From: Rhodopila sp.
Lineage (GTDB): Bacteria > Pseudomonadota > Alphaproteobacteria > Acetobacterales > Acetobacteraceae
DNA: 33,678 bases
Direction of reading: 5' to 3'
Assembly (NCBI GenBank): GCA_025355085.1
Contig: JANXLQ010000314.1
Span: 1-33,678, forward strand
This document shows, in pieces, positions 4,653 to 28,203 of this stretch. Each line of letters starts with the position of its first letter. Position 1 is the first letter of the stretch. The notes under the pieces are model-generated. The model ran no database searches, had not been told where the DNA came from, and saw only the letters and a list, made by a program, of their open reading frames with translations. The translations under genes were made by a program, and so were the position numbers.

Positions 4653-6920
4653 TTATCCGGCCGCGTCGAGCGCTGCGCGGATCTTCGGCGGCGACATCGG
4701 CAGATCCGGCATACGAAGTCCGGTCGCGCTGCGGATGGCATTGGCGATCGCGGCCATCGGCGGGATGATCGGCACTTCGCCCACACCGCGGGCACCGAAC
4801 GGGTGACGCGGGTTGGGCACTTCCACCAGCACCGCCTCGATCATCGGCATGTCGGAGGCGACGGGTACCCGGTAGTCGAGGAACCCGGCGTTCTCCATCT
4901 GGCCTTTGGTGTTGTAGATGTATTCCTCGCTCAACGCCCAGCCGATGCCTTGCGCGGCACCGCCCTGGATCTGGCCTTCGACGTAGCTGGGATGGATCGC
5001 CTTACCGACGTCCTGGATCGCGGTGTAGCGCTCGATCTTGACGTGACCGGTTTCCTTATCGACCGACACATCGCAGATGTGGGCGCCAAATCCGGGGCCT
5101 GCGCCCTGGGCGTTGACCGACACCTCGGCGAGAATCGGCCCGCCTGTGCGGCCGGCCTTCAGCGCCAGGGCAGCGAGATCCAACGGCTCGAACGCACCGG
5201 CGTTGGAACCGGCCGGATAGGCCATGCCGTCTTTCCACTCGACCGCTTCGACCGGGATGTCCCAGGTCTGTGCGGCACGGCGCTTCAGGTCTTCGACCAC
5301 CTTTTCGGCGGCCTGCGTGGCCGCCATGCCGGTGGCGAAGGTCACCCGCGATCCACCCGTCAGGAAGGTGAAGCCGATCGACGCCGTGTCCGCGACGATG
5401 GTACGAACCGCAGTCGCCGGCACACCGAGTACTTCGGCGACCATCATGCCGATGGAGGCGCGAGAACCACCGATATCCGGGCTACCCGTCGCGGCGGTAA
5501 CCGTCCCGTCCTCATTCACATGCACCTGCGCCGAGGATTCGCCGCCGATGTTAAACCAGAAGCCGGTAGCCAGGCCGCGGCCGTGGCCTTCCTTCAACGG
5601 CGACTTCCAATGCGGGTGCGACTTCACGGCGTCCAGAACGGCGGTAAATCCAATGTTCTGGTGGACCGGCCCGTAATGGGTTTTCGTGCCGTTCTTCGCC
5701 GCATTCATCTCCCGCAGGGTCAGTGCGTCGATGCCCAGCTTGATGGCCAGTTCGTCCATCAGGCTTTCGACGGCGAAAGAGGTGATCGGGGCGCCCGGGG
5801 CGCGATAGGCAGCGACCTTCGGACGATTGCTGACCACGTCGTAGCCAACGACATCGACGTTCGGCAGGTCATACATGGCGAACCCGCACATGCAGCCCGG
5901 CCCGATCGGCGATCCCGGGAAAGCGCCGGCCTGGAATTTCAGCACCTGTTGAGCGGCGACGATGGTGCCGTCTTTCTTGGCACCGATCTTGACCGTCATC
6001 GCGGCGCCGGACGTCGGACCAGAGGCGCGGAACACATCTTCCCGCGTCATCTGCATCTTGACCGAACGGCCCGACTTTCTCGACAGCGTGACGGCAACCG
6101 GCTCTAGATACACCAACGTCTTGCCACCGAAGCCGCCACCGATCTCGGCCGGATTGACCCGGATATTGGACATGCTGATGCCCAACAGTTTGGCGGTGTA
6201 GGCGCGGACCATGAAATGGCCCTGGGTGGAGGTGTGGATCTGCACCTGACCGTCGGGGGCATAGCTCGCAAGGCACGCATGCGGCTCGATATAAGCCTGA
6301 TGCACCGGCTGGGTGGTGTAGCTACCCTCGACGATGACGTCCGCTTCCTTGAAGCCGGCTTCCACGTCGCCCTTCTTGAAGGTAACGACCTTGGCGATGT
6401 TGGACGGCTTCTCGGGCTTCGGTGACACGCCGGAGGTGAACATGTCGGCGTGCAGCACGGGTGCGCCGGGAGCCATTGCATCTTCCACGTCGATGACGTG
6501 CGGCAGAACTTCGTAGGTCACCTCGATCAGCGCCAGCGCCTCATCGGCGATCGCCTGGGTGCTTGCCGCGACGGCGGCCAAGGCATGGCCCTCATACAGG
6601 ACTTTATCGCGCGCCATGCAGTTCAGCGACAGATCGCGGAAATTCATCGGACCTTCACCGACGAACGCCTCTTCCGAGGCGATCTCGGGGAAATCGACGC
6701 CGCTGACGACGGCAAAAACGCCCTTCAGCGCCGCCGCCTTGGTCGTATCAATCGATACGATTCTGGCATGGGCATGCGGCGACCGCAGCACCTTGCCCCA
6801 CAACATTCCCGATGCCCGCGTATCCGCTGCGAACACCGCGCGTCCGGTCACCTTATCCACCCCATCCGGACGGATGGGACGAGTGCCAACGACTTTTAGA
6901 CTGGAGTCGATATAGTTCAT
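4653..6920 (-). CDS. Xanthine dehydrogenase/aldehyde oxidase family Mo-cofactor subunit (copy 1)
   Basis: 755-residue large subunit of a molybdenum hydroxylase, carrying the molybdopterin cytosine dinucleotide cofactor and the active site. Seen: N-terminal GTRPIRPDGVDKVTG typical of the aldehyde-oxidase a/b domain, the cofactor loop GGGFGGK (261-267), the active-site loop AYRAPG (371-376), and the catalytic glutamate in GVGE (E715). The loop is AYRAPG, not AYRCSFR, so this is not a form I CO dehydrogenase. Length fits CoxL/CutL-type three-subunit enzymes. Its start overlaps the 2Fe-2S gene by ATGA (6917-6920) and its stop abuts the MoaD-like gene. The substrate is probably an aldehyde or an aromatic or N-heterocyclic ring; this cannot be settled from sequence. 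A paralogue lies at 18193-20472. Confidence 0.93.
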   Translation of the reverse strand: MNYIDSSLKVVGTRPIRPDGVDKVTGRAVFAADTRASGMLWGKVLRSPHAHARIVSIDTTKAAALKGVFAVVSGVDFPEIASEEAFVGEGPMNFRDLSLNCMARDKVLYEGHALAAVAASTQAIADEALALIEVTYEVLPHVIDVEDAMAPGAPVLHADMFTSGVSPKPEKPSNIAKVVTFKKGDVEAGFKEADVIVEGSYTTQPVHQAYIEPHACLASYAPDGQVQIHTSTQGHFMVRAYTAKLLGISMSNIRVNPAEIGGGFGGKTLVYLEPVAVTLSRKSGRSVKMQMTREDVFRASGPTSGAAMTVKIGAKKDGTIVAAQQVLKFQAGAFPGSPIGPGCMCGFAMYDLPNVDVVGYDVVSNRPKVAAYRAPGAPITSFAVESLMDELAIKLGIDALTLREMNAAKNGTKTHYGPVHQNIGFTAVLDAVKSHPHWKSPLKEGHGRGLATGFWFNIGGESSAQVHVNEDGTVTAATGSPDIGGSRASIGMMVAEVLGVPATAVRTIVADTASIGFTFLTGGSRVTFATGMAATQAAEKVVEDLKRRAAQTWDIPVEAVEWKDGMAYPAGSNAGAFEPLDLAALALKAGRTGGPILAEVSVNAQGAGPGFGAHICDVSVDKETGHVKIERYTAIQDVGKAIHPSYVEGQIQGGAAQGIGWALSEEYIYNTKGQMENAGFLDYRVPVASDMPMIEAVLVEVPNPRHPFGARGVGEVPIIPPMAAIANAIRSATGLRMPDLPMSPPKIRAALDAAG

Positions 6921-18192: not shown

Positions 18193-20472
18193 TCAGGCCG
18201 ACATGGCCGCGAGCAGGCGTGGCGGAGACATCGGCAATTCGGTCATCCGCGTGCCGGTTGCCATGGCAATCGCGTTGGCGATCGCGGCCATCGGCGGGCA
18301 GATGCACGCCTCGCCCACGCCCTTGGCGCCATACGGATGGGTCGGGTTCGGCACTTCGACCAAAATCGCGTCCAGCATCGGCAGGTCGGACGCAACCGGG
18401 CAGCGATAATCGAGGAACCCGGCGTTATCGAGCAGGCCCTTGGCGTTGTAGATGTATTCCTCGCTCAACGCCCAACCCACGCCCTGGGCGACGCCGCCCT
18501 GGATCTGGCCTTCGACATAGGACGGATGGATCGCCCGTCCGACATCCTGGGCCGCGACAGCCTTCAGAATGGTAACATGACCGGTTTCCGGATCGACCTG
18601 AACATCGAAGAACTGAGCGGCAAAACCGGGCGCCTGTCCGCCGGCATTGACGCCGTTGGACGCCGTGATCGGGCCGCCGGTTGCCGCCGCCTTGGCTGCG
18701 ATGTCTTTCAACGACAACGGCTTGAAGTCGCCGACGTTGGAGGACGCAGGCTTGGCAAAGCCATCTTCCCAGACCACGCCTTCCTCATCCACGCCCCAGA
18801 TCAGCGCGGCGCGTTTGCAGAGGTCTTTCACCACGATGTTGGATGCATTCACCACCGCCATGCCGGTCGCGAACGTAACCCGCGATCCGCCGGTTACATG
18901 CGTGTAACCAACCGAAGCGGTGTCAGCGACAATGGCGCGCACCGTGTTGTAATCCACCCCCAGCGTTTCCGCGGCCATGATCGCCATGGATGCGCGCGAG
19001 CCGCCAATGTCCGGGCTGCCGGTCGCCACCAGAACGGTGCCGTCAACGTTCACCTGAAGGGTCGCGCTCGACTCGCCGCCGCCATTGAACCAATAGCCGC
19101 AGGCAACGCCGCGTCCCTGGTTGGGACCGAGCGGAGCCGTATAACCAGGATGATTCCGCAGCGCCTGCAGGGTTTCGACAAACCCGGCATGGGCATGCTT
19201 CGGCCCACCGAGTGTCGGCGTACCAATCCGGGCGACGTTCTTAATCCGCATATCCAGCGGATCCATCCCGATTTCCTTGGCGCAAAGATCGAGCACACTC
19301 TCCACCGCGAAGTTTGCGATCGGGGAGCCAGGCGCACGATACGCCGCCGCCTTCGGCCGGTTCGACACCACGTCGAAGCCCACCGCCCGCTGGTTGGCGA
19401 TCTCGTAAGGTGCATAGGCGCACAGGCAGCCGTTCATCACCGGCGAGCCCGGGAAAGCGCCTGCCTGGAACTTGAAGATGCCGTCGGCGGCCACAATCGT
19501 GCCGTCCTTCATAACGCCGATCTTAACCCACATCGACGCACCGGAGGTCGGGCCAGAGGCGCGGAAGACTTCCTCGCGGCTCATTTGCAGGCGTACCGGC
19601 AGGCCGGATTTGCGGGATAGCGTGGCGGCGATGGGTTCCAGGTAGGTGACCGTCTTGCCCCCGAAACCACCACCGATTTCAGCCGGCGTCACGCGCAGGT
19701 CGCCCAGTTTGGCGCCGAGGATCTGCGCGGTAAGGGCGCGCATCTGGAAGTGACCCTGGCTGGAGGACCAAATTTCGCACTGGCCGTCGGCCTCATACTT
19801 CGCGACGCAGGCGTGCGGCTCGATATATGCCTGATGGACGGCGGCGGTCTTGAACTCCTTCTCGATCACCACGTCGGCCTGCGCGAAGCCGGCCGCGACA
19901 TCGCCCATGGCGAAATCCAGGCGCTTGGAGATGTTCGACGCCTTCGTGGGCACCGGCTCGATGCCGCGCGAGATCATGTCCTCGAACAGCAGCGGCGCGT
20001 CGGGCGCCATCGCTTCATCGACGTCGATGACATGCGGCAGAACCTCATACTCGACCTTGATCAGCGAGGCAGCGTGATCGGCGATGCTGGCGCTGATCGC
20101 AGAGACCGCAGCGACCGCGTGGCCTTCGTACAGCACCTTTTCCCGCGCCATGATGTTGCGGGTGACGTGCCAGAAGTTTACCGCGACCCGCTCCGGCCCA
20201 ATGTAGTCGAACTTCTGCGCGGGAAGATCGGCGGCGGTCATCACTGCCTTCACACCCGGCAGAGCCTCGGCGGCGGAGGTGTCGATCGACACGATACGAG
20301 CGTGCGCGTGCGGCGAGCGCAGAATCTTACCATAGATCATTCCCGGCAGCTTCAGGTCCGCGCCATACATCGCTCGGCCCGTAACCTTGGGAATCCCATC
20401 GGGGCGAATCGGACGGGTTCCGATCCACTTAAAACGCTTCACTGAATCGGTGACGATCGTAGAGTCGTTCAC
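18193..20472 (-). CDS. Xanthine dehydrogenase/aldehyde oxidase family Mo-cofactor subunit (copy 2, without partner subunits)
   Basis: 759 residues from GTG 20472, preceded by GAGGA 6 nt upstream; the longer frame to 20544 has no family match and is rejected. It is closely related to copy 1, with shared blocks such as GTRPIRPDG, LRSPHAHARIVSIDT, VHQAYIEPHAC, AEIGGGFGGKT, SRKSG, EDVFRASGPTSGA/EEVFRASGPTSGA, and PMSPP near the end. The active-site loop AYRAPG is at about 377-382 and the catalytic glutamate is E721 in GVGE. It differs from copy 1 in the segment after GVGE (ACICPP against VPIIPP) and around residues 85-110, so a different substrate is likely. No FAD or 2Fe-2S subunit gene is adjacent: upstream are an AhpD-like and an LLM gene. 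It either shares the small subunits of copy 1 or works in another complex. Confidence 0.92.
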   Translation of the reverse strand: MNDSTIVTDSVKRFKWIGTRPIRPDGIPKVTGRAMYGADLKLPGMIYGKILRSPHAHARIVSIDTSAAEALPGVKAVMTAADLPAQKFDYIGPERVAVNFWHVTRNIMAREKVLYEGHAVAAVSAISASIADHAASLIKVEYEVLPHVIDVDEAMAPDAPLLFEDMISRGIEPVPTKASNISKRLDFAMGDVAAGFAQADVVIEKEFKTAAVHQAYIEPHACVAKYEADGQCEIWSSSQGHFQMRALTAQILGAKLGDLRVTPAEIGGGFGGKTVTYLEPIAATLSRKSGLPVRLQMSREEVFRASGPTSGASMWVKIGVMKDGTIVAADGIFKFQAGAFPGSPVMNGCLCAYAPYEIANQRAVGFDVVSNRPKAAAYRAPGSPIANFAVESVLDLCAKEIGMDPLDMRIKNVARIGTPTLGGPKHAHAGFVETLQALRNHPGYTAPLGPNQGRGVACGYWFNGGGESSATLQVNVDGTVLVATGSPDIGGSRASMAIMAAETLGVDYNTVRAIVADTASVGYTHVTGGSRVTFATGMAVVNASNIVVKDLCKRAALIWGVDEEGVVWEDGFAKPASSNVGDFKPLSLKDIAAKAAATGGPITASNGVNAGGQAPGFAAQFFDVQVDPETGHVTILKAVAAQDVGRAIHPSYVEGQIQGGVAQGVGWALSEEYIYNAKGLLDNAGFLDYRCPVASDLPMLDAILVEVPNPTHPYGAKGVGEACICPPMAAIANAIAMATGTRMTELPMSPPRLLAAMSA

Positions 20473-20589
20473 GGCATCCTCGCTTTGCTTAATCTTGAAC
20501 CAATTGGCTGTAGCCAGGGTCGCCCACCAGGCAGGGAAACGCAATAGCTGGATGCAACCGGACTACCGAACATCGCGCCCAGCCGAAGG

Positions 20590-22524: not shown

Positions 22525-22866
22525 ATGGCGCTGAAACGCATGGTGCTGGAAATCGGCATGGGCACAGACATCAGGGGCATCGATCCCACAAAGGCCGCCG
22601 TGCGCGCCCTTCGCGACGCACTCTGGCACAACTCGCTCGGTGTTGCCGCCGCGCTGGGACTCGACACCGACTCGATGCAGGTGGAGGTCACCATCGGCGT
22701 GCCGCACCCAGAACAGGTGGACAAGGCGCAGGTGCTGGCGATCCTGCCGCACGGCACCGGAACGGTAACAGTCGTGGAGGGCGGGTTGGAAATCCCGAAT
22801 GACGAAGGCACCAACGCCACCTTGATCGCCAGTGCTGCCGCTGTAGTCTGGTTAGACGTCCCCTAG
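22525..22866 (+). CDS. Lin0512 family protein (copy 1, altered motif)
   Basis: 113 residues. It belongs to the small Lin0512 family of unknown function. The family is marked by GxGxDxHG near the N-terminus; here the motif is GMGTDIRG, with Arg at the His position. Seen: KRMVLEIGMGTDIRG, TKAAVRALRDALWHNSL, a beta strand QVEVTIGVPHPEQVD, LPHGTGTVTVVEGGLEI, and a hydrophobic C-terminal strand. ATG 22525 lies 8 nt after AGGGG. It is divergent from the LLM gene across 110 bp and followed by a paralogue after 126 bp of palindromic DNA. The tandem pair suggests a hetero-oligomer, with one member having lost the motif; that is inference. Confidence 0.88.
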   Translation: MALKRMVLEIGMGTDIRGIDPTKAAVRALRDALWHNSLGVAAALGLDTDSMQVEVTIGVPHPEQVDKAQVLAILPHGTGTVTVVEGGLEIPNDEGTNATLIASAAAVVWLDVP

Positions 22867-22875
22867 AGCGCGATT

Positions 22876-22978
22876 GTTTGAGGTTGCTTCCACCTCAAAC
22901 GTGAATCACGCGATCGAACATAGAATTAGACCATGATCGGCACGGGAGAGGGTTCAATCTCAAACGATCATGGTCTAA
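22876..22978. repeat. Composite palindromic element between the two Lin0512 genes
   Basis: Two perfect inverted repeats. GTTTGAGGT (22876-22884) pairs with ACCTCAAAC (22892-22900), loop 7. TTAGACCATGATCG (22926-22939) pairs with CGATCATGGTCTAA (22965-22978), loop 25. The second ends just before the ribosome-binding site of the second gene, so it could affect its translation or act as an operator. CTAGAGCGCGAT at the left edge resembles widespread alphaproteobacterial palindromic repeats. Confidence 0.65.
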
Positions 22979-22992
22979 CGGAGAACAGCATC

Positions 22993-23337
22993 ATGGCACG
23001 CAAGCGCGTTATTCTGGAAATGGGCACCGGCAACGATCTGCACGGTGGAGACTACACCAAAGCGGCGCTAAGGGCGGTGCAGGACGCCATTCACCACTCC
23101 TCGCTATCCATGATCCGCTCGCTCGGTATCGACGCGAAGACGCAGATGTTCGTAGAGGTAACAATCGGCGTTCAGCAGCCCGGCGAGGTGGACCTGGAGG
23201 CCGTGAAAGCGACTCTGCCGCACGGAATCGTTACTGTGAAGGCGGTCAAGGGCGGCTTGGATGTGATCGACCGGGAACGTGGCGACAACGCGGTCATTGC
23301 CAACGCAGCCATCGTGGTTCGGCTGGAACTGCCGTAG
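22993..23337 (+). CDS. Lin0512 family protein (copy 2, canonical motif)
   Basis: 114 residues from ATG 22993, with GGAG 9 nt upstream; the earlier in-frame ATG 22933 lies inside the palindromic element and is rejected. It carries the intact family motif GTGNDLHG (GxGxDxHG), then TKAALRAVQDAIHHSSLSMIRSLG, FVEVTIGVQQPGEVDLEAV, LPHGIVTVKAVKGGLDVI, and IANAAIVVRLELP. It aligns with copy 1 along its whole length. The family function is unknown. Its placement beside oxidoreductase and CoA genes suggests a metabolic role, which is inference. Confidence 0.9.
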   Translation: MARKRVILEMGTGNDLHGGDYTKAALRAVQDAIHHSSLSMIRSLGIDAKTQMFVEVTIGVQQPGEVDLEAVKATLPHGIVTVKAVKGGLDVIDRERGDNAVIANAAIVVRLELP

Positions 23338-23693: not shown

Positions 23694-24473
23694 TTAGCGG
23701 CCACGCCAAATGGGTTGACGTTTTTCGACATAGGCGCGAATGCCCTCGACTCTGTCCTCACTGCTGTATGGACTAATGCCCTCATTCAACCGAAGCGCCG
23801 CAGGCACCGGCAAACCGTTGGATCGGATCGCCGTTTCCTTCATGCGCCGCAGCGAAACCGGGGCGTTTTCGCAGATCGCCTCGGCCATGCGCATCGCTTC
23901 GTTCAGCGCTTCGCCACGCGGAACCACGCGGTTCACCAGCCCCCAGCGCCTAGCGTCCTCGGTGCCGATATATTCGCCCAGATACAGCATCTCATAGGCG
24001 ATGCCGGACGGGATCATCCGCGGCAGCATGACATTGGCGAAGTGCGCGCCCTTACCGCGTTTGGCTTCCGGCAAACCCAGCAGCGCATGTTCGGCAGCCA
24101 CTCGCATGTCGCAGGCCAACGCCAACTCCAAACCGCCGGCGACAGCCGATCCATTCAAAGCGGCGATGGTGGGCTTGATGGTTTCATAGACAACTTCGAA
24201 CACGTACCGCTGGACGCGGGACAGCAGCGGCTGGAACGGCTTTCCGTCCGCATCCTCCTGCGCCCGCGCCTTCAAATCGGCACCGGCGCAGAAGGCCCGG
24301 TCGCCAACCGACGTTAATACAATTGCCCTAACGTCCGGGTCGGCGCCGCCTTCGACGAACGCCTCGATCAATGCGTCCGACAACTCCGGCGAGAGCGAGT
24401 TCATCCGCTCCGGCCGGTTAATTGTCAGCACCAGGATTTGTCCGCGCATTTCCGCCAGCAGGATGTCGGTCAT
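23694..24473 (-). CDS. Enoyl-CoA hydratase/isomerase family protein
   Basis: 259 residues from ATG 24473, with GGGGGAGA about 8 nt upstream. Crotonase superfamily. Seen: ILVLTINRPERMNSLSPEL, the oxyanion-hole block DRAFCAGADLKARA, and NGSAVAGGLELALACDMRVAAEHALLGLPEAKRGKGAH, in which the Glu of LELAL and the Glu of LPEAKRG take the places of the two catalytic glutamates of enoyl-CoA hydratase. The usual GxxPGxGG after PEAKxG is here GKGAHFAN, so a specialised substrate is possible. It is divergent from the ADP-forming acyl-CoA synthetase gene with 126 bp between them. It probably hydrates an unsaturated acyl-CoA in the local pathway. Confidence 0.92.
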   Translation of the reverse strand: MTDILLAEMRGQILVLTINRPERMNSLSPELSDALIEAFVEGGADPDVRAIVLTSVGDRAFCAGADLKARAQEDADGKPFQPLLSRVQRYVFEVVYETIKPTIAALNGSAVAGGLELALACDMRVAAEHALLGLPEAKRGKGAHFANVMLPRMIPSGIAYEMLYLGEYIGTEDARRWGLVNRVVPRGEALNEAMRMAEAICENAPVSLRRMKETAIRSNGLPVPAALRLNEGISPYSSEDRVEGIRAYVEKRQPIWRGR

Positions 24474-24599: not shown

Positions 24600-26645
24600 A
24601 TGCCAGCCCAAATCGCCACGCAGGACGCGTTGCACGCCTTGTTCCATCCGCGCGCAGTGGCAGTGATCGGCGCGTCCGACGATACAACGAAGCACGGCTA
24701 TATCGTGTTGACCAACATCCGCGACACCGGCTTTGAGGGCGGTATTTACGGCATTAGCCGCCGGCTGAAGGATGTCGATGGCATCCCGTGCTTCCCCGAT
24801 CTGGCATCGGTTCCCGAACAAATCGACACCGCATTCCTGGCGATCCCGGCCGAGGCTGCCGTGCAGGCGGTGCGCGACTGCGCCAGGGCTGGCCTTAAAG
24901 CGGTGATCGTGGGCTCCGCCGGTTATGCCGAAAGCCTGGATGCCGGCGGCGAGGCACGCCAGCGGGAACTTCAGCAAATCGCCGAGGAGGAAGGCATCCG
25001 AATCGTCGGGCCGAACTGCAACGGCATGTACAACGCGCATCATCCCGTATCGGTCGGGTTCAACACCGCGCACGCCAAGCGGCAGACACCCGGCGGAATC
25101 TCGATCTTTTCCCACAGCGGCGCGCTGTTCGATGCGATGGCCGGCCGGTTGCGCATGCTCGGCGCCGGGCTGTCGCTGTTCGCCTCGGCAGGGAACGAAG
25201 CCGACATGTCAGTGCTGGACTACATGGAATACGGCATCAGCCACGCCCAGACCCGTGTCATCGTTCTGTTGATCGACAGCCTGGACGATGGCCCGCGATT
25301 CCGCCGGCTGGCACTGGCGGCTCATGCGGCGGGCAAGCATGTCGTGGCATTGAAGATCGGAGGGTCGGAGGCAGGCGCGGCGGCAGCGGTGGCGCATTCG
25401 TCCCGCATGGCCGGCGACGACGCGTCCTATCGCGCACTGTTCGCGGCCAGCGGCGTGGCGACGGTCAAAACGCTGGAGGGCCTGATGACAGCCGCCGCTC
25501 TGCTGGACAAATACGGCAGTTGCCCGGGAAAGCTCGGGTCGCTGTCCACATCCGGCGCCGGCGCCTCTCTCATCGCCGACCGCTGCGAGGCACTCGATGT
25601 GCCGCTGGCAACCCTGACGCCGGAAACCTTTGCGGCAATCGACTCGCACAAGATGTTCTCGCGCATCGGCAACCCGCTCGACATGGGAATTTTCGGCGGC
25701 ATGCGTCGCTCGGCGGAGGTTCCCAGCCTGCTGATGAACGATGCGGGCGTGTCGGTCGGCCTCGCCCTGGTGCATTCGATGAACCCCTGGCAGGGCGACC
25801 CGTATCGCGCCGCGATGGGCGATGCCCGGAAGCGGTCCGGCAAGCCGCTGCTGGTGGTCACGCCGGGCGGCATGCCAGAGGCGGAACGGCAAACCTATCT
25901 GGATCGCGGCATCGACGTGTTCACCGACACCGACATCCTGTTAGAGGGAATTGGCGCGCTGATGACACCGCCGCCGCAACCCATTCCAGAATCCGTGCCC
26001 GCCAGAGCAAGCGCCCTCCCCGGCCGCCAGCTTACCGAACCCGAAAGCCTGCGCCTGCTGGCCGAATACGGTGTGCGGACGGTGCCGACAGTGGAATGCG
26101 ACTCGGCGGCCGCTGCCGTCACGGCAGCAATCCGCCTGGGTTATCCCGTGGTGTTGAAAGGCGTTGCCGACGGAGTCGCGCACAAAAGCGACCTCGGTCT
26201 GGTACATGTCGGCCTGCGCGACACCGATGCCGTGGCGCAGGCGTTCAAGGCGGCCGGCTGTCCCCGCGTGATCGTCCAGGCCATGATCGCCGGCGACCTG
26301 GAGGCCATAGCCGGAATCACCCGCGCGGACGGTGTCGGACTGGTCCTGATCGCCGGCCTCGGCGGCATCTTCGCGGAGGCGCTGCACGACGTCTCCACGT
26401 TCCCCATTCCTATCGGCCGCGGGTTCATCGAGGCCGCACTGGCGAAAGGCAACCTCGGGCGCGTGCTGGCCAGCCCCCGATGGAAACACCCCGGCTCATT
26501 CGATGCCTTCGTAGATCTGCTGATGGCACTACAGGCAGCGGCGTTGTCGCTCGGCGACACCCTGCAAGCCATCGACATCAACCCCGTCATTCTGGGCGAA
26601 GCAGGCGCCATTGCCGTCGATGCGCTGGTGATTCCAACACCATGA
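24600..26645 (+). CDS. ADP-forming acyl-CoA synthetase (acetate-CoA ligase type, fused alpha-beta)
   Basis: 681 residues from ATG 24600; the longer frame to 24438 overlaps the divergent gene and is rejected. It makes or breaks acyl-CoA with ATP/ADP and phosphate. Domains in order: CoA-binding (HPRAVAVIGASDDTTKHGY, about 16-33), succinyl-CoA-ligase-like (PGGISIFSHSGALFDAM and onward), then ATP-grasp from about 480 (LLAEYGVRTVP, GYPVVLKGV, VAHKSDLGLV) with the C-terminal AIDINPVIL. The phospho-histidine site is H266 in AAVAHSSRMAG, where the family usually has SHTGSLAG, so the neighbours of the catalytic His are changed. Its stop overlaps the start of the RuBisCO-like gene (ATGA, 26642-26645), so the two are translationally coupled. 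The acid it activates is unknown. Confidence 0.92.
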   Translation: MPAQIATQDALHALFHPRAVAVIGASDDTTKHGYIVLTNIRDTGFEGGIYGISRRLKDVDGIPCFPDLASVPEQIDTAFLAIPAEAAVQAVRDCARAGLKAVIVGSAGYAESLDAGGEARQRELQQIAEEEGIRIVGPNCNGMYNAHHPVSVGFNTAHAKRQTPGGISIFSHSGALFDAMAGRLRMLGAGLSLFASAGNEADMSVLDYMEYGISHAQTRVIVLLIDSLDDGPRFRRLALAAHAAGKHVVALKIGGSEAGAAAAVAHSSRMAGDDASYRALFAASGVATVKTLEGLMTAAALLDKYGSCPGKLGSLSTSGAGASLIADRCEALDVPLATLTPETFAAIDSHKMFSRIGNPLDMGIFGGMRRSAEVPSLLMNDAGVSVGLALVHSMNPWQGDPYRAAMGDARKRSGKPLLVVTPGGMPEAERQTYLDRGIDVFTDTDILLEGIGALMTPPPQPIPESVPARASALPGRQLTEPESLRLLAEYGVRTVPTVECDSAAAAVTAAIRLGYPVVLKGVADGVAHKSDLGLVHVGLRDTDAVAQAFKAAGCPRVIVQAMIAGDLEAIAGITRADGVGLVLIAGLGGIFAEALHDVSTFPIPIGRGFIEAALAKGNLGRVLASPRWKHPGSFDAFVDLLMALQAAALSLGDTLQAIDINPVILGEAGAIAVDALVIPTP

Positions 26646-27739
26646 GATTCGCCGTCACCTACCACATCCGCTCCGACGCGGCGTCGATCGAAGCCCGCGC
26701 CCAAGGCATCGCAGTTGAACAAAGCGTCGAAATGCCGCTCGGCGGTATTCAGGATTCTGCCGTCCTGGTCGATATTGTCGGACAGGTGGACGGGATTGCC
26801 GACATTGGCAATGACCTGTTCGCTGTCCGGATTATGCTTGCCGGCGCGACGATCGGTGAGGACGCCGGGCAATTCCTGAACATGCTGTTCGGCAATACCT
26901 CGCTGCACGAGGACGTCCTGCTGCACGACGCGGAAATACCCGGCACGCTAAGGTTGGCGTGCGGCGGCCCGCGCCACGGCATTGCCGGCCTGCGCCAGCG
27001 TTTGGGCGTGCCGCACCGGGCGTTCACCGGATCGGCGCTAAAGCCGCAAGGTTTATCGCCGGATCAGTTAGGAGGTCTGGCCGAGCAATTCGCCAGTGGC
27101 GGGCTGGATTTCGTGAAGGACGATCATGGGCTGGCGGACCAATCCTACAGCCGCTTCGCCAGCCGGGTGCGTTCTTGTGCGGCCGGTATCTCCCGGGGCA
27201 CAAAGATAACCGGGCACCCGACCCGATACATTCCCAGCCTGACCGGTAACCTGGACCAATTACGCACGCAGGCAGCACTGGCGCGCAACGAGGGGCTGGA
27301 CTGCGTCATGGTGGCGCCGATGATATCCGGTTTCTCCAACGTTCAGGCACTGGTCGCGGATTTCCCGGACATGGCCTTCTTCGCCCATCCCAGCATGGGC
27401 GGTCTGCGGATTTCTCCAGGTCTGCTCATCGGGAAACTGTTTCGCCTCATCGGTTGCGACGCAGTGGTGTTCCCAAGCCATGGCGGGCGGTTCGGGTATT
27501 CGCCGGCCATGTGCCTGGCATTGGCGGAAAATGCTCGGGGCAACGATCCCGGATGCCCTGCCCTGCCCGTCCCGGCTGGTGGCATGACGATTGACCGCAC
27601 TGCTGAAATTCTTGACTTCTATGGGCCGGACACGATGCTGCTGATCGGTGGCAACCTCCTTCTGGCGCGCGAGCGGATCGCCGGGGAAGCCGCCGCCTTT
27701 GCCCGCGCCGTTGCGGACCACACATTTACCAGGGGCTAG
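26642..27739 (+). CDS. RuBisCO-like protein (form IV type)
   Basis: 365 residues from ATG 26642. Shorter than true RuBisCO large subunits (about 450-480) but with their blocks in order: N-terminal FAVTYHI, FGNTS with N85 (equivalent to Asn123 of the spinach enzyme), GPRHGI, GSALKPQGLS with K134 (Lys175), GGLDFVKDDH with K159 (the carbamylated Lys201), FFAHPSMGG with H249 (His294), and VPAGGM at 311-315. Differences from carboxylating RuBisCO: the acidic ligand after Asp203 is His (H162), Lys177 is replaced in LKPQGL, the Arg after His294 is Pro, the Ser379 position is Ala, and no loop-6 lysine block is seen. It is therefore a RuBisCO-like protein that probably enolises or isomerises a phosphorylated sugar or related compound. 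It is coupled to the acyl-CoA synthetase before it, with a cupin 2 bp after. The reaction is unknown. Confidence 0.88.
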   Translation: MRFAVTYHIRSDAASIEARAQGIAVEQSVEMPLGGIQDSAVLVDIVGQVDGIADIGNDLFAVRIMLAGATIGEDAGQFLNMLFGNTSLHEDVLLHDAEIPGTLRLACGGPRHGIAGLRQRLGVPHRAFTGSALKPQGLSPDQLGGLAEQFASGGLDFVKDDHGLADQSYSRFASRVRSCAAGISRGTKITGHPTRYIPSLTGNLDQLRTQAALARNEGLDCVMVAPMISGFSNVQALVADFPDMAFFAHPSMGGLRISPGLLIGKLFRLIGCDAVVFPSHGGRFGYSPAMCLALAENARGNDPGCPALPVPAGGMTIDRTAEILDFYGPDTMLLIGGNLLLARERIAGEAAAFARAVADHTFTRG

Positions 27740-27741
27740 CC

Positions 27742-28203
27742 ATGGATTCCGAAATTCTGCCGCTGTTCCGCCCGGTCAAAGAAGACTTCCGTTGGGAGGC
27801 AGTTGCGCACCAACCGTACAAACAGGACGGAAGCGCCCCATTCAAGGATATTTCGCGGCAGGTGTTGTTCCACGAAGACTCCCTGGCGTGCGAGCTGCGC
27901 TATTTTGAAATGGATGCTAACGGCTACTCGACGTTGGAACGGCACGAGCATACTCATGGCGTTATGATCCTGCGCGGCTCCGGCGAATGCCTGGTCGGTG
28001 AAGATGTGCGAACGGTCAAGCAATTCGATTTAATATCGATCCCATCCATGGTCTGGCACCAATTCCGCGCCACCGCTGGTGAGCCGCTCGGTTTTCTCTG
28101 CATGGTCAATGCACAAAGGGACCGGCCGCAATTACCCTGCGACGCGGACCTTGCGGGTCTGAGGTCAATCCCGGCAGTAGCCCGATTTCTGGCAAAGCCC
28201 TGA
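27742..28203 (+). CDS. Cupin domain protein next to the RuBisCO-like gene
   Basis: 153 residues. Single cupin barrel. The first motif is ERHEHTHGVMILRGSGECLVG with H68 and H70 (and H72) as likely metal ligands; the glutamate usual four residues later is absent. The second motif gives H106 in IPSMVWHQF. EPLGFLCMVNAQRDRPQLP near the end is a long conserved-looking block. ATG 27742 follows the stop of the RuBisCO-like gene by 2 bp, with AGGGG inside that gene's end. In Rhodospirillum rubrum a cupin near a RuBisCO-like gene is the 1-methylthioxylulose 5-phosphate methylsulfurylase, so a sulfur-sugar role is a fair hypothesis. The acyl-CoA synthetase in this operon is not part of that pathway. Confidence 0.88.
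   Translation: MDSEILPLFRPVKEDFRWEAVAHQPYKQDGSAPFKDISRQVLFHEDSLACELRYFEMDANGYSTLERHEHTHGVMILRGSGECLVGEDVRTVKQFDLISIPSMVWHQFRATAGEPLGFLCMVNAQRDRPQLPCDADLAGLRSIPAVARFLAKP

Follow-up and report, generated by a model that had tools for sequence, protein, structure and literature searches.

A RubisCO-like protein and cupin pair assigned to the methylthioadenosine-isoprenoid shunt stands behind a probable synthetase-crotonase module in Rhodopila

In a 33,678-nucleotide stretch of DNA from Rhodopila sp. (contig JANXLQ010000314.1 of assembly GCA_025355085.1; the whole stretch is called the window below), three consecutive genes encode an ADP-forming acyl-CoA synthetase, a RubisCO-like protein (RLP), and a cupin. 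Our analysis indicates that the RLP and cupin are very probably a pair of predicted enzymes of the 5'-methylthioadenosine (MTA)-isoprenoid shunt, presumed to share a transcript with a seemingly independent module, apparently gained once, that consists of the synthetase and a divergently transcribed crotonase. The grounds for this reading are homology, conserved residues, and co-occurrence, together with the absence of the classical dioxygenase from the RLP genomes tested, linkage throughout the genus, and genomes that have lost the module and kept the RLP and cupin. A known salvage locus here takes a lineage-specific form, and among the three genes the synthetase is its only unusual part. What is new is that, throughout the genus, an ADP-forming acyl-CoA synthetase and a crotonase are tied in a module-like way to an RLP-cupin salvage pair, an arrangement of which we found no description in the open-access literature searched.

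All three genes lie on the plus strand and occur as a sequence-only reading of the window had described them. The synthetase gene (positions 24600–26645; 681 residues) shares an ATGA overlap at 26642–26645 with the RLP gene (26642–27739; 365 residues, DeepYkr type), whose stop codon TAG (27737–27739) is followed by a 2-bp gap and the ATG of the cupin gene (27742–28203; 153 residues). The synthetase exceeds the Pfam cut-offs for CoA_binding_2, Succ_CoA_lig, and ATP-grasp_5, the RLP that for PF00016 (68.8 bits against 30.1), and the cupin that for Cupin_2 (43 bits against 27.2). The genome (G000; 4.94 Mb in 471 contigs) holds a single RLP match.

The nearest solved structure to the RLP is 3qfw (6e-105, the second-best standing at 1e-30), and the fetched loci closest to 3qfw are those of Rhodopseudomonas, at 66–70% identity. 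The likeness to the Rhodospirillum rubrum RLP-cupin pair on which the sequence-only reading had remarked is borne out: the window RLP matches the R. rubrum RLP, from a genome whose cupin repeats the aligned letters of 3jzv, at 202 of 357 aligned residues, the best solved relatives of the cupin are 3kgz (4e-53) and 3jzv (9e-53; deposited as Rru_A2000), and both window proteins group with those of R. rubrum and Rhodopseudomonas. Among family rows, which include duplicate loci of the same genome, RLP residues Lys134, Lys159, Asp160, Asp161, and His162 are identical in all 138 rows having a letter there (His249 is also conserved), whereas in the cupin His68, His70, and His72 are kept in 128 of 128 rows, His106 in 127 of 127, and Cys120 in 125 of 125. 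We take the RLP lysines and KDD(H) motif to be active-site residues and the cupin histidines to be of the metal type, and we likewise presume a role for the cysteine. Scores against the NCBIfam equivalog models for MtnW (136.7 and 97.6 bits; cut-offs 409 and 513.6) and OiaX (48.3 bits; cut-off 700) fall short. According to excerpts of PMC4958253, PMC4334135, and PMC5893883, the RLP of R. rubrum and Rhodopseudomonas palustris is a 5-methylthioribulose-1-phosphate (MTRu-1P) isomerase and the cupin a 1-methylthioxylulose-5-phosphate (MTXu-5P) methylsulfurylase. By homology, we assign the window proteins with high confidence as the middle two enzymes of this published shunt, with predicted MTRu-1P 1,3-isomerase and MTXu-5P methylsulfurylase activities.

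Co-occurrence across genomes points the same way. An RLP match at 1e-20 is present in 36 of 299 sampled genomes of the order; five of these are weak (1e-21 to 1e-25), and the remaining 31 are exactly the 31 genomes with a cupin match at 1e-15. In a set of named loci, the best 80 of at least 575 confirmed RLP stretches, the cupin lies directly 3' of the RLP in 72, spread over several phyla; the other eight have no cupin in the 2.1–10 kb downstream of the RLP. The acireductone dioxygenase family of the classical route, PF03079, is matched in none of 26 genomes with an RLP (24 of the 31 order genomes, that of the window included, plus Rhodopila globiformis and R. rubrum) versus 18 of 20 without one (Fisher p 7e-11). 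The gene mtnP is present in all 46 genomes tested (308.7 bits in the window's genome; cut-off 274.85) and mtnA in 268 of the 299 order genomes, including all 31 with the RLP (5.2e-122 in the window's genome). Taken as a whole, these findings are good evidence that the RLP and cupin substitute for the classical salvage route in these genomes. The sequence-only reading had suggested that the three-gene set could turn a branched or sulfur-containing sugar acid into a CoA thioester by a pathway that it could not match to a described one. For the RLP and cupin such a novel route finds no support: both group with their R. rubrum and Rhodopseudomonas counterparts, and the genomes tested that carry them have no match to the dioxygenase.

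Some observations temper this conclusion. The 20 RLP-less genomes were hand-picked, and seven of the 31 RLP genomes (g20, with a more distant RLP) lie outside the dioxygenase comparison. Since mtnP and mtnA also occur in genomes without the RLP, they do not discriminate between the routes. For the last step, the O-acetylhomoserine sulfhydrylase family is matched in 10 of 10 genomes, nine of them over the cut-off, as well as in all 14 controls, and in the window's genome the matches are partial ones at contig ends, the best reaching 464 bits against a cut-off of 495.1.

In the pathway we propose, MtnP would split MTA and MtnA would isomerize the product to MTRu-1P, both being encoded elsewhere in the window's genome. 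The RLP would then convert MTRu-1P to MTXu-5P, from which the cupin would strip the methylthio group to give the isoprenoid precursor 1-deoxyxylulose-5-phosphate and a methanethiol equivalent, and O-acetylhomoserine sulfhydrylase would make methionine from the latter. With this assignment the known range of the shunt reaches Rhodopila-related Acetobacteraceae, where the data suggest that it takes the place of classical methionine salvage.

Elsewhere in the window's genome, mtnP directly follows the genes for cytochrome c1 and cytochrome b (L143, 6886–9910). Loci L144, L145, L146, and L148 look similar by eye, and inspection by eye only did not reveal a synthetase or aldolase gene in this neighborhood. 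On plasmids, RLP matches occur in 25 records and cupin matches in two records of the collection only, those of Terrarubrum and Candidatus Thiodictyon. The Terrarubrum plasmid carries RLP, cupin, and cysE (serine O-acetyltransferase) genes in a row (L190, 5995–8542), which hints at a connection with sulfur assimilation. The three Rhizobiaceae plasmids of this kind that were examined carry a different cassette (L191, 1688–7119; L192, 1686–7110; L193, 1686–7110), in which an RLP 39–41% identical to that of the window forms a single run with mtnK, mtnA, and a two-part transketolase/DXS-like enzyme; a sugar ABC transporter is encoded next to it. A cupin is not annotated nearby, and the transketolase may substitute for the cupin step.

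The synthetase has a much narrower distribution. At 1e-150, with the three best candidates per genome scored, it is found in 9 of the 299 order genomes, all of them Rhodopila. Within this genus, which includes R. globiformis (G362, locus L036) and genomes G379, G381, and G376 (loci L031, L033, and L034), 27 of 33 genomes have the synthetase and 32 the RLP. The synthetase lies directly upstream of the RLP in all 26 genus genomes with both on one contig; in the remaining case, G372, the end of a contig truncates the synthetase, and a separate contig holds the RLP. Spacing between the two matches, stop and start codons included, is 8, 11, or 14 bp in the 24 genomes other than that of the window, G371, and G372. 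The coupling of the three genes on which the sequence-only reading had remarked goes beyond chance. The two refuting conditions set by that reading both have mixed outcomes; as to the first, a broken gene order in relatives, the trio stays together, yet among the genomes examined this is so in one genus only. The 15 kb of R. rubrum DNA surrounding the RLP yielded no synthetase match, nor did 74 of the 80 named loci (which extend at least 2.1 kb upstream in 60 of the 74 and <1 kb in 10) or, at 1e-60, plasmids. Crude clustering of open reading frames (ORFs) in the 80 named loci yielded, besides RLP, cupin, and their antisense frames, no cluster common to more than six loci. We also considered Rru_A1999 as a possible synthetase and rejected it, the ORF in the R. 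rubrum RLP-cupin interval (L132, 7069–7443, minus strand) being a BrnA-type antitoxin. The ADP-forming synthetase is indeed, on our reading of it, foreign to the published pathway, and the earlier unease about it was fair: membership of the RLP in a known functional group, judged from its nearest relatives, accounts for the cupin and leaves the synthetase unexplained.

The synthetase nonetheless looks catalytically complete. The candidate phosphohistidine His266 and the ATP-grasp residues His528 and Lys529 are invariant in an 11-row alignment, and His266 aligns with His292 of DddX, a solved member of the family of ADP-forming acyl-CoA synthetases (ACD). With the phosphohistidine and the ATP-grasp HK motif kept, the enzyme should be active, and we predict from these features that it turns a carboxylic acid into a CoA thioester. 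Its nearest NCBIfam models are ADP-forming acetate-CoA ligases (307.5 and 278.1 bits), and these scores are consistent with recycling of acetate: the synthetase would return to acetyl-CoA the acetate that O-acetylhomoserine sulfhydrylase frees when making methionine from methanethiol, and matches to the sulfhydrylase family are present. We nevertheless consider this very unlikely, as the curated acetate-CoA ligase cut-offs (1200 and 567.15 bits) are not reached, the crotonase is left unexplained, and R. rubrum, which has the published shunt, lacks a synthetase match around its RLP.

The crotonase gene (23694–24473, minus strand; enoyl-CoA hydratase family) adjoins the synthetase gene genus-wide. 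Of the 22 genus loci that extend 1.1 kb or more upstream, 21 have it beside the synthetase, ~1 kb away in one of these 21, and it is absent from all five genus loci without the synthetase, one of which has just 4.5 kb on that side. Because the crotonase tracks the synthetase across genus loci, the pair behaves as one module. A synthetase with a crotonase is the usual layout of hydroxycinnamate-type modules, and the pair might accordingly comprise a feruloyl-CoA synthetase and hydratase-lyase, or act on some other aromatic or branched acid, metabolically unconnected with MTA in either case. An excerpt of PMC6388921 describes a soil feruloyl-CoA synthetase, FCS1, with the same three Pfam domains and a phosphohistidine at position 267, close to His266 here; the comparison covers the domain set and the histidine number only, and domain architecture alone does not decide the substrate. 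The crotonase, however, keeps Glu116 and Glu136 in all 22 rows, like ordinary hydratases, and its best solved relatives, among the 60 shown, are hydratases or dehydratases by name. To our knowledge, hydroxycinnamoyl-CoA lyases lack the first of these two glutamates. We therefore judge a module of this aromatic or branched-acid kind to be unlikely.

A link to sulfur chemistry would instead have the synthetase activate (methylthio)acetate or 3-methylthiopropionate and the crotonase help to free methanethiol for the same methionine-forming end step. The synthetase is coupled genus-wide to the MTA-salvage pair, and excerpts of the literature lend this some appeal: the methanethiol-forming enzymes of the aerobic dihydroxyacetone phosphate (DHAP)-methanethiol shunt were treated as unidentified in 2018 (PMC5893883), and DddX acts on a sulfur acid, dimethylsulfoniopropionate (DMSP; PMC8163506). 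DddX is not the nearest solved relative of the synthetase, though (6e-50 against 6e-61 for a 3-hydroxypropionate-CoA ligase). Its Trp391 aligns across a gap with Phe365 and is not kept, and its Glu432 and Phe435 lie outside the alignment. A Dmd-like route would also need an acyl-CoA dehydrogenase, and none of the 26 window proteins scanned with Pfam, to which this search was confined, is one. On balance we regard methylthio-acid metabolism as quite improbable. We give similarly low odds to a CoA-dependent methylthio-acid branch of MTA salvage, made up of the synthetase and crotonase, that would share an operon with the isoprenoid shunt and provide an aerobic route of the DHAP-methanethiol type with its methanethiol-forming steps.

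The history of the locus favors a separate module. When the presence of the synthetase is mapped, partly with labels set by hand, onto an RLP tree built from 90 of 124 rows, it needs three changes, two of them forced by well-supported branches, and genus RLPs without the synthetase are nested among those with it. The simplest history is probably one gain of the module, near the base of the genus, and two losses. Since the RLP and cupin stayed where the module was lost, the module is not required for the shunt. Genome G113, of the same genus, retains a C-terminal synthetase remnant just before its RLP (L140, 10385–10624; 60% identity over residues 602–681), with its cupin on another contig (G113:C30:23784-24236). 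Between the window and genome G057 (L133), the one pair compared in this way, synonymous distance reaches 1.6 for the RLP and cupin, against 0.59–0.77 for the four genes that span 20743 to the synthetase and 0.85–1.20 for five downstream genes. This profile suggests that the RLP-cupin segment was exchanged in place as a unit in one lineage. Together, the synthetase remnant and the suggested segment exchange point to two separable, and presumably independent, functions.

The same pair of genomes could be read differently, because their RLPs are 70% identical versus 89% for the synthetases and 96% for the crotonases: the RLP and cupin might have drifted to a new substrate in the genus, using the acid activated by the synthetase. 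We hold this to be extremely unlikely. Every family row examined keeps the key residues, the divergence resembles what a replaced RLP-cupin segment would show, and the 10 genus genomes tested, which lack the classical dioxygenase, need another salvage route.

We thus favor a synthetase and divergent crotonase that would form a separate acid-handling module, set once in front of the RLP and cupin near the base of the genus; so placed, it would let the shunt genes ride on its transcript. The strict genus-wide coupling of the synthetase and its low dN/dS (nonsynonymous to synonymous rate ratio; 0.085 in one genome pair, 0.144 in another) sit uneasily with this separation, and the synthetase could belong to the same metabolism. 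The module is a concrete place to seek further methylthio-acid handling steps, an area in which PMC5893883 (2018) left terminal enzymes open. Should it turn out to be unrelated, the locus would simply have its shunt genes lying behind another operon, which is nothing out of the ordinary.

The window also holds other genes. Tandem Lin0512-family genes lie near the crotonase (22525–22866 and 22933–23337); the pair is matched in L133 and in none of nine other regions compared, although several of these do not extend far enough to include it. On the minus strand, 4653–6920 and 18193–20544 each encode a molybdenum-hydroxylase large subunit, and the two share a set of three Pfam domains. Genes for FAD and [2Fe-2S] subunits adjoin the first, and the stretch separating it from the second includes CoxE-, XdhC-, and MobA-like genes.

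Compared with known systems, the locus most resembles the MTA-isoprenoid shunt of R. rubrum (Rru_A1998/Rru_A2000) and R. palustris (RLP1 and cupin): its RLP gene precedes its cupin gene as it does there, both proteins are related to those of the two species, and its genome has mtnP and mtnA and no match to the classical dioxygenase. It differs from the R. rubrum locus in the synthetase overlapping the RLP start and in the divergent crotonase, neither of which was matched in the 15 kb examined there, whereas in R. rubrum the minus-strand antitoxin ORF separates the RLP from the cupin. MtnW, the 2,3-diketo-5-methylthiopentyl-1-phosphate enolase, belongs to the same superfamily as the window RLP, and its classical salvage route shares the upstream pathway with the shunt, as is generally held and as an excerpt of PMC6302742 has it; the window RLP misses the MtnW model cut-offs, and the genome lacks a dioxygenase match. 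OiaX, the RLP of the apiose pathway, is likewise of this superfamily, its model cut-off being far from reached. The synthetase differs from DddX, the ATP-dependent DMSP lyase, at Trp391; it has in common with both DddX and FCS1 the ACD family and the phosphohistidine, and with FCS1 the three Pfam domains as well.

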